From assembly GCA_003648245.1 (NCBI GenBank), contig QMOO01000004.1:1-20508 (forward strand): a DNA stretch of 20,508 nt, read 5' to 3'. This document shows, piece by piece, positions 5,291-8,200 of this stretch. The first letter of the stretch is position 1. Each line of letters begins with the position of its first letter. A model generated the notes under the pieces. The model saw only the letters and a list, made by a program, of their open reading frames with translations. It had not been told where the DNA came from and did no database searches. Source of the DNA: Caldisericota bacterium. GTDB taxonomy: Bacteria > Caldisericota > Caldisericia > B22-G15. The position numbers and the translations under genes were made by a program.

Positions 5291-8200
5291 CAGTCACATT
5301 TTGAGTATCCACACTTTGGACACGTCCAGCAACCCTCAATACTTATCATTGGAGTTCCACATTCAGGGCATAAAGGTATGTCAAGATTTATCTTAGGTTC
5401 CTCTTCACTTTCTTCCTCTGCCTTCTCCTCAACAACTATCTTTTTCTTTTCCTCTTTTCTCATGGAAAGATACTTTTCTATTGCTTTGGCAATAGCGTCT
5501 GCACAGGATAGAATTTTATCTCCATCCTGCCATGTTGGATTTGGACACCTGATTCCCTTTAATTGATCAACTATGGAATCTGGGTCAATTCCTGATCTTA
5601 AAGCAAGGGATATTAGTCTGGAAATTGCCTCAGTTTGAGATGCTGCACACCCACCAGCCTTCCCAAGAGTTGAAAAGACTTCACATATTCCATTTTCGTC
5701 TTCGTTTATAGTTACATACAGGTTGCCACATCCAGTCTTCATCTTTATTGTGGCACCAAAGGTAATTTTAGGTCTTGGTCTTGGTTTTAGTTTCTCTCCT
5801 CTTTTCTCTTCCTTTCCTCTTATAAGTACCTGAGTCTCTTTAGATCTATCTCTATATACTGTTATTCCTTTTAAACCAAGTTTATATCCTGTAAGGTATA
5901 TATTCTTTATTTCGTCAACTTTAGCATCCTGAGGGAGATTTACTGTCTTTGAAACAGCGTTATCTGTGTATCTTTGAAAGGCTCCCTGCATCTTTACGTG
6001 CCATTCCCAGTGTATATCATGTGCAGTAACGTATATTCTTTTCATATCTTCTGGAATTTCTTCTATATCCTGAATGCTTCCCTCTTCAATAACTTTATCC
6101 ATCAACTCTTCTGAATAGAGTCCTCGTTCTTTAAGTTCCCTTTCAAATATTGGATGTATCTCATTCCACTCTCCTATAGCTACCTTTCTCTTAAATGCAA
6201 GTGCAAATAAAGGTTCAATTCCAGAAGAACAACCAGCAATTATGCTTATAGATCCAGTTGGGGCAATTGTAGTGATTGTTGCATTCCTGACCTTTCTTTC
6301 CTCTTTTTCAAATACGCTTCCCTTCCAGTTGGGGAAAACTCCTCTTTTTTCTGCAAGTTCCTCTGATTTCTTCCAGCCTTCCTTGCTTATAAAACTCATC
6401 ACATCTTCTGCAACTTTAAGTGCTTCTTCTGAATCGTAAGGAATCCTTAGCTTTATAAGTAGATCATGAAACCCCATCACTCCCAAACCTATTTTTCTGT
6501 TACCCTTTGTTTCCCTTTCAATTTCAGGAAGCGGGAATTTATTTACATCAATTACATTGTCAAGAAAATGAACTGCAGTTCTTACAACTTCTCCCAAAGA
6601 GTTATAGTCAATCTTTCCATCTACCGCAAACTTGGATACATCAATGGAGCCAAGATTACACGATTCATAAGGTAGAAGAGGCTGCTCACCACAGTCCATG
6701 CTTAATATTCCATTGGTTATCCATGTATACTCTGGCGGTGCAGTTATATCAAAAACTTCTTCCTCGCCATCTTCATCTATGCTTATAATTTCCTGATATT
6801 CATACTTTTTTAGTGTTGAGTATGTATTTTTATTCCCTGCGAGTTTCTTAAACTTCTCTTTCTTTTTTCCAATAAATCCTATTTTTTCAAAGAATAAGCT
6901 CGCTCTTTCTCCAGAGATTAAAATTCTGTAAGTAGAGTTTGTTCTATAGCTTTTTCCTTTTATAGTTTTTGTCTCTTCCCCTTTCTCCTTTGTTAATGTA
7001 GATGGGATACCGAGATAGAGTAAAAGAATCTGAACCTGTTTTAGAAGTTTCTTTGAGGAGGAAGAAAGAGCAACCGTGATAGTTCCTTTTGATTCATAAA
7101 CTGTTCCATCAGAAGAAAATATTCCCCTAAGAAGTGCTTTTATGGATTCTGTATCCTCCCTCAGGAATTTTTTAGGAATCTCCTTTTCTATGCTTTTGGA
7201 AGTTTCTATCCCAAAAATTCCTCTTAGCTTCTCTGCAAACTGTTTTACATGAGTATCCACTATAAACTGGTTCTCCCTCTCCATAATGTAGGAGGAGCCG
7301 GAGAATCTTTCAAGTATAGGAGAGAGATGATTGACAAGCTCTAAGTCACTTCCCACATGTAAAGATACATGATTTGAATTGCTTAAAGATCCATCTCCAA
7401 TAAAATATCCAATAAGTTCAAAGAATTCTATATCTTTTGTTTTGTTAGATTTTACCTCTGGATAATTCAAAGGAACAAAAACTCTATCATGAAGTTTTAA
7501 GTCCCTCACCTCTTTCCATCCATCCTCTGTCATAAGTTTATGCTCAGGAGTTACTCTAATTTCCAATCCAGATTTCAAAGTAATTTTATATATCTTTTTG
7601 ACCCCATTATTTATAACTTCCTCTATCTTGTTCCATCCTCTACCATTCCATGCTCTCATTCCCTTCTTAAGGTCCCTTGCTTCAACAAGTCCTTCATCTG
7701 TAGCTACAAGAGTATCTCCAACCACACAGGGGTTCGTGGATTCTATATCCCCAACATTGGGTGTCGGATTGTGTTTGTTTATGGTATCTATAAAAATTAC
7801 GCCTGGATCACCTGTTTTCCAGGCGTGTTCTGCTATTAAATCAAAAACATACTTTGCCCTTAACTTTTTCCAAACTTTCCCATTTCTCGGGTTTATAAGC
7901 TCATACTCTTCATCATCAAAGTACCTTCTCATAAATTCATCTGTTATTGCCACAGAAATATTGAAATTGGTAAGAATCCCTTTTTCGTCCTTTGCTGTTA
8001 TGAATTCAAGGATATCTGGATGATCAACTCTTAAAATGCCCATATTTGCTCCCCTTCTTACCCCTCCCTGTTTTATAGTATCGGTAGCTACATCAAATAT
8101 CTTCATGAATGATACAGGCCCTGAAGCAACACCCATTGTGCTTTTGACTATATCACCTTTGGGTCTCAATCTTGAGAATGAAAAGCCTGTTCCTCCCCCT

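Follow-up and report, generated by a model that had tools for sequence, protein, structure and literature searches.

The nrdJ locus and its intein

The window analyzed here, the whole stretch of 20,508 nucleotides from contig QMOO01000004.1 of a Caldisericota bacterium (assembly GCA_003648245.1), carries an nrdJ gene interrupted by an intein (Table 1). The gene product matches PF02867, PF00317, and PF12637 and scores above the cut-off of NF006417 in profile searches. Directly downstream, at 2292–5290 on the minus strand, lie an amidohydrolase, with a 1-bp overlap, a GTP cyclohydrolase I, and a pterin-binding enzyme, and the surroundings of nrdJ look like a chromosomal housekeeping context. The window also has, on the plus strand, a 165-aa ORF with no Pfam match (16645–17142) and a deoxynucleoside kinase-like ORF (PF01712; 19894–20508) that runs to the window end and could possibly place dNTP salvage beside reduction.

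Table 1. Features of the intein-bearing nrdJ gene, with positions in the window (residues numbered on the precursor; reduced set as defined in the text).
Feature	Position	Strand	Remarks
nrdJ precursor with intein, adenosylcobalamin-dependent (class II) ribonucleotide reductase	5290..8547	-	1085 aa, one open frame
N-extein, residues 1-273, ending ...IESTNP	7729..8547	-	Translation, residue check
Intein of the Asp-terminal Chy RIR1 type, residues 274-618, containing a LAGLIDADG domain	6694..7728	-	345 aa
Cys274, intein Cys1, first nucleophile	7726..7728	-	Cys in 46/46 Asp rows, reduced set
Block B T333-x-x-H336 (intein T60, H63)	7540..7551	-	Codons 7551-7549 (T333) and 7542-7540 (H336); Thr, His in 46/46 Asp rows, reduced set
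Homing endonuclease domain (LAGLIDADG), approximately intein residues 96-303	6820..7443	-	
Asp600, block F:4 Asp (intein D327)	6748..6750	-	Asp in 46/46 Asp rows and 100% of N/Q and G rows
Tyr607, block F:13 (usual His)	6727..6729	-	Intein position 334, -12
Ser616, position -3	6700..6702	-	Ser in 82/91 Asp, 71/76 Gly, 1/162 Asn/Gln types
Met617, penultimate residue (usual His)	6697..6699	-	
Asp618, C-terminal residue of intein (usual Asn)	6694..6696	-	
Cys619, +1 nucleophile of C-extein	6691..6693	-	
C-extein, residues 619-1085 + stop	5290..6693	-	Translation

The intein sits at the NP/CGEQ site of the B12-dependent ribonucleotide reductase (RNR), and the extein without C274–D618 shows the same junction as the uninterrupted P0104, the sole intein-free protein at the NrdJ site in the protein set compared. 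The frame is open, extein and intein are each conserved, and the DNA of the intein/C-extein junction reads ...AGC ATG GAC / TGT GGT GAG CAG. A preliminary description of this locus had drawn attention to three catalytic residues replaced by Tyr607, Met617, and Asp618 in an intein whose blocks F and G align without gaps to standard inteins and whose C274, T333/H336, and +1 Cys are normal. Translation, residue check, and junction DNA bear out the three replacements, the residue check finds the other residues as described, and the alignment of the tail to PDB inteins (phmmer) is indeed gapless, with Tyr beneath the block F His.

The AlphaFold model of the intein has a pLDDT of 95.4, and its splicing domain, which has the Hint fold in this predicted structure, superimposes at 1.3–1.4 Å over 124–125 residues on gp41-1, Ssp DnaB, and 4oz6 (a branched-intermediate structure), with alignments that extend up to the last residue. 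As for class membership, Cys274 at the start, Cys619 at +1, the empty-site match to P0104, block B T333 and H336, and block F:4 D600 are all those of class 1, but the terminal Asn and the His at F:13 and G:6, which are usual in this class without strictly defining it, are Asp, Tyr, and Met instead. A class 3 intein, which has Cys at F:4 and can do without a Cys/Ser nucleophile at its N terminus, is ruled out by Cys1 and the F:4 Asp, and the Gly-terminal type described below (F:13 Asp, terminal Gly) by Tyr607 and Asp618.

The homing domain corresponds to PF14528 (1.5e-21), and both LAGLIDADG motifs retain acidic residues (GYFIGDGS and GIFSSDGT), so the endonuclease is apparently intact. The acidic residue is gone from both motifs in P0029 (named Caldisericia), which keeps block B and tail after the motif loss and thereby indicates that splicing residues outlive homing. 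The LAGLIDADG motifs of the P0039 NrdJ intein are decayed too, with an Asp-type tail and an intact block B.

Terminal residue and histidine loss among NrdJ inteins

Inteins were compared in a set of 333 proteins including that of the window (P0001), obtained in three seeded searches from which the best 120 each of 951, 224, and 2119 matches were taken. Extraction at the NrdJ site gave 329 inteins (P0104, P0182, P0304, and P0311, intein-free or with an unmatched junction, were left out), and all counts include P0001 and its near-copies. The terminal residue was Asn in 125, Asp in 91, Gly in 76, and Gln in 37 of them. A His at -12 (F:13) or -2 (G:6) was present in none of the 91 Asp types, in none of the 76 Gly types, and in 159 of the 162 Asn/Gln types; the positions were counted back from the junction, and a MAFFT alignment of 140 rows agrees. 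These 140 rows (46 D, 42 N, 33 G, 19 Q) form a reduced set at 72% identity, drawn from the first 237 inteins, in which the pattern is the same.

In Asp types, position -12 is occupied by Tyr (33), Leu (28), Phe (26), Lys (2), Val (1), or Ile (1), and position -2 by Leu (70/91), Tyr (10), Met (4), or other residues (7). The exact Tyr/Met/Asp combination singled out in the preliminary description is rare even within its own type, being confined to P0001–P0004 (4/91), with Leu as the usual penultimate residue. When 14 scattered Asp rows were compared with 61 Asn/Gln rows, the most divergent columns were intein positions 334 and 345 (1.0 each) and 344 (0.97), at which the two groups are all but completely distinct; Ser at 343 ranked next (0.67), and every other column was lower. 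Thr at -8 is left out of the coupled module, its score being no higher than those of several unrelated columns.

A rule by which all Asn/Gln inteins keep a His (92/92 at first) was broken by the third search, seeded with an Asn-type intein, since P0300, P0318, and P0320 (3/162) end in Asn and have neither usual His. A viral contig (L082) carries a Gln-terminal intein at a CSE site, also with neither His. Further mechanisms or decay may possibly lie behind these four sequences.

Next to the window's own protein, the 45 best matches (P0002–P0046) all end in Asp. The intein of P0002 is 90% identical to that of the window, with an extein identity of 93% over the stretches compared. A sequencing error as the source of the three replacements is unlikely, because all of P0002–P0046 end in Asp and 91/329 same-site inteins do so with no His at -12 or -2; the last-20 sequence is also identical in P0002 and P0003. 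In P0003 (labelled Odinarchaeia) and P0004 the intein is more similar to that of the window (78–79%) than the extein is (63–70%), a difference that suggests horizontal spread by homing.

The coupling extends to other collections. A scan of named genomes gave 36 loci, 32 of which were extracted (four, in another extein, were left out): 11/11 Asp-type inteins are devoid of both His, and the penultimate one is retained in 21 inteins of the Asn type, all from Paenibacillus. The Asp-type genomes comprise a Desulfobacterales MAG, a Tepidanaerobacteraceae, an unclassified bacterium, three Aenigmatarchaeota, another archaeon, three Anaerolineae, and one Aggregatilineales. Among 201 genomes scanned from the phylum of this last MAG (G008), the pattern holds in two Asp and two Gly genomes, one of the Asp loci (L121) being the same as L008 of the earlier scan. 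It holds as well in one Asp-type and two Gly-type inteins of viral contigs, among the junction-matched loci of a scan in which 80 of 162 loci were kept and 66 of these 80 had no junction matching the pattern used. The viral Asp-terminal sequence (L086:5001-5459) is a mini-intein of 153 aa located before CSEY in an RNR gene, and the Gly-terminal ones (L047, L059) are also found in RNR genes.

Ten of the 11 Asp-type genomes have one class I/II RNR locus (in-frame pieces joined), and in eight no RNR was found besides the interrupted gene, both counts being from draft MAGs of unstated completeness. Splicing is indirectly supported because those eight show no other RNR. A copy in the window that does not splice, in a cell relying on another reductase, would find parallels in G007, which has a second, intein-free class I/II RNR besides the intein-bearing one, and in G002 and G006, where a class III NrdD scores above the cut-off; set against the eight genomes with no other RNR found, the open frame, and the conservation of P0002 (extein 93% identical where compared, same tail), this seems to us scarcely credible.

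Recurrence of the Asp tail and a Gly-terminal sister type

Trees were built without the last 13 residues, and P0064, P0105, and P0237 (N/Q) together with all G rows were excluded from the tree used for the Asp label. The label changes 10 times on the best tree, at least four of these changes being forced by starred branches, and a single clade of all 46 Asp rows is rejected (AU test, p-AU 2e-7). An independent-pairs sign test had just four pairs on starred branches, which puts 0.05 out of reach. The Asp tail would thus have either arisen several times or been lost several times, or else tails have been exchanged. Asp and Asn tails differ by exactly three module residues in P0111 versus P0109 and in P0324 versus P0121, and for this reason point change is favoured over the import of a cassette.

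The Asp clade of the window has 29 non-redundant rows with a support of 100 and includes both P0001 and P0011, the NrdJ of Carboxydothermus hydrogenoformans, whose 345-aa intein lies at the same site, is 60% identical to that of the window, and ends KYTWITNGILSLD (tail given as YTWITNGILSLD). We take the P0011 intein to be the Chy RIR1 intein, Chy standing for C. hydrogenoformans, of the 2004 JBC paper by Amitai, Dassa and Pietrokovski. There, the Chy intein reportedly splices with its native Asp345, as seen in E. coli, and changing Asp345 is said to have abolished splicing, while the Asp345-to-Ala variant reportedly still cleaved at the C terminus.

These data bear on the suggestion of a degenerate or conditional intein, in which the three losses would slow release and splicing would hang on heat or redox state. 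The preliminary description had reasoned in this way from three simultaneous losses, and two Gln-terminal Pol II inteins do splice slowly and improve with Asn according to the part of a review dealing with them (PMC4031507). However, the Asp signature is fixed throughout the 29-row clade and has been gained or lost several times, unlike decay. The reported splicing of the Chy intein in E. coli also argues against a conditional intein, nothing in the present comparisons hints at a dependence on heat or redox state, and we consider such an intein very unlikely. A pseudogene or decay reading of the signature as such was rejected, the signature being clade-wide and recurrent.

A second His-free type at the same site is formed by the 76 Gly-terminal NrdJ inteins, with the tail ...YDLYEPETDTWITEGYVSRG/CGEQ, which have Asp at -12 in 76/76, Arg at -2 in 74/76, and Gly at -1 in all, and which fall on one separate branch (support 99). 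Fifty of them are mini-inteins of 131–167 aa (134 aa in P0156) and 26 have 355–375 aa, with sources including Rokubacteria, Methylomirabilota, Anaerolineae, Nitrospinota, and Patescibacteria (members include P0081, P0156, P0174, P0122–P0154, L117, L118, and L059). They share with the window intein the site, the TWIT.G..S tail, the lack of His at -12 and -2, and a predicted Hint fold (the model of the viral L059 intein, with a pLDDT of 94.9, superimposes at 1.3 Å over 123 residues on gp41-1 and is aligned to the last residue), but have Asp, mostly Arg, and Gly where the window intein has Tyr, Met, and Asp. A terminal Gly cannot cyclise, and in these sequences F:13, not the terminal residue, seems to supply the acid. 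In the phylum scan, one genome (G039) has a Gly-type intein in the only RNR found, with no class III enzyme, and another (G140) has one plus two other RNR-family genes. No publication on Gly-terminal inteins was among the matches listed from one open-access literature collection, and reports may exist elsewhere.

Release of the C-extein and comparison with known systems

Taken at the level of sequence and predicted fold, the window intein is, with a probability of roughly 0.7, a functional member of class 1 and of the Chy RIR1 type, and its C-extein would be released via a carboxyl group without help from His. Judging from the conserved residues and the fold, Cys274 would make the thioester, aided by T333 and H336 of block B and Asp600 at F:4, and Cys619 would make the branched intermediate. 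The C-terminal step would then dispense with Asn and its His helpers, and the Asp618-Cys619 bond would be cleaved by the carboxyl in the side chain of Asp618. Most likely, this carboxyl would attack its own carbonyl to form a cyclic aspartic anhydride while the acid protonates the departing amine, and hydrolysis would return the anhydride to Asp, after which an S-to-N acyl shift would join the exteins. For the anhydride step itself the chances are near even.

The non-basic Tyr607 and Met617, or a nonpolar pocket, would tend to hold Asp618 neutral and protonated. Both His may have been lost along with the change of Asn to Asp because ionisation of the acid is to be expected from a His at those positions, and we infer that their loss is part of an Asp module and not damage. 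This protonation argument is weakened by the Asp types that carry Lys at -12 (2/91) or Arg or Lys at -2 (3/91). Asp-based cleavage, named in the preliminary description as one form that an altered mechanism could take, remains the best reading, although the three losses are no isolated oddity, given 91 of 329 inteins that end in Asp with neither His.

The same residues could act differently. Along an otherwise unchanged splicing path, Asp618 might serve as general acid/base or orient a water molecule (or another group of the intein might attack), with no cyclisation, and in the Gly-terminal sister type the F:13 Asp would take the part of Asp618. Asp at -12 in 76/76 Gly-terminal inteins would fit a shift of the acid from the terminal position to F:13, and a Ser at -3 is common to Asp (82/91) and Gly (71/76) types and found in 1/162 Asn/Gln types. 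Cyclisation of Asp345 cannot explain the C-terminal cleavage reportedly retained by the Chy D345A variant. Gly types, being unable to cyclise, imply that another release route exists if they splice, and acid-assisted hydrolysis accounts for them and for the reported Ala variant better than the anhydride route does. However, at CSE-type sites a -12 Asp is found together with a His-Asn end (L037, L130), so it is by itself no mark of new chemistry. Asp cyclisation is, moreover, the default in the review cited above: a figure legend has Asp-terminal inteins follow the class 1 path, with Asp cyclising at step 3, and allows for other mechanisms, and Asp is counted among the residues able to cyclise (PMC4031507). 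The FrpC self-processing module, described as undergoing autoproteolysis through an aspartic anhydride, is a precedent. On balance, hydrolysis without cyclisation is a less likely but still plausible reading.

More broadly, we would propose, at slightly less than even odds, that NrdJ inteins have two release engines with several coupled switches between them, one with a terminal Asn or Gln plus at least one His, the other with a carboxyl in a His-free pocket. If so, the carboxyl of the second engine would be on the terminal residue in the Asp type or at F:13 in the Gly type, Asn cyclisation would not be the sole exit that class 1 inteins have evolved, and the Gly-terminal type would splice in nature with no terminal residue able to cyclise. 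For release of the C-extein without Asn and His, the legend just mentioned allows mechanisms besides cyclisation (PMC4031507). The near-strict coupling, the repeated origin or loss, and the Gly sister type turn the route of this release into a testable question, with natural pairs differing mainly in the module. For annotation, Asp and Gly inteins would be missed or wrongly trimmed by any search that demands Asn or Gln at the end, and for engineering, an acid-driven, His-free release could yield new cleavage tags.

Among known inteins with an atypical C-terminal residue, the CIV RIR1 and Pol II inteins are listed as ending in Gln (PMC4031507), and the host of the former is also an RNR. They resemble the window intein in having such a residue and differ in its being Gln and not Asp. 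Gln-terminal NrdJ inteins at the same site have at least one His in 37/37 cases. The NrdJ-1 split intein (PDB 8ubs) has the Hint fold in common with the window intein (1.5 Å over 125 residues) and, by its name, an RNR host; unlike the window intein, it is presumably a standard Asn-terminal fast split intein.

The counterpart in P0011 shares with the window intein its site, the length of 345 aa, the terminal Asp, the F:13 Tyr, a nonpolar penultimate residue, the LAGLIDADG domain, and the clade, and differs in a penultimate Leu instead of Met and in Lys instead of Glu before the Tyr. The C. hydrogenoformans protein essentially removes the view of the Tyr/Met/Asp intein as a stand-alone oddity, provided that its intein is the Chy RIR1 one. 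With the same site, a terminal Asp, no His at F:13 or G:6, and a place in the C. hydrogenoformans clade, the window intein would essentially belong to the already known Asp-terminal Chy RIR1 kind, on that same condition.
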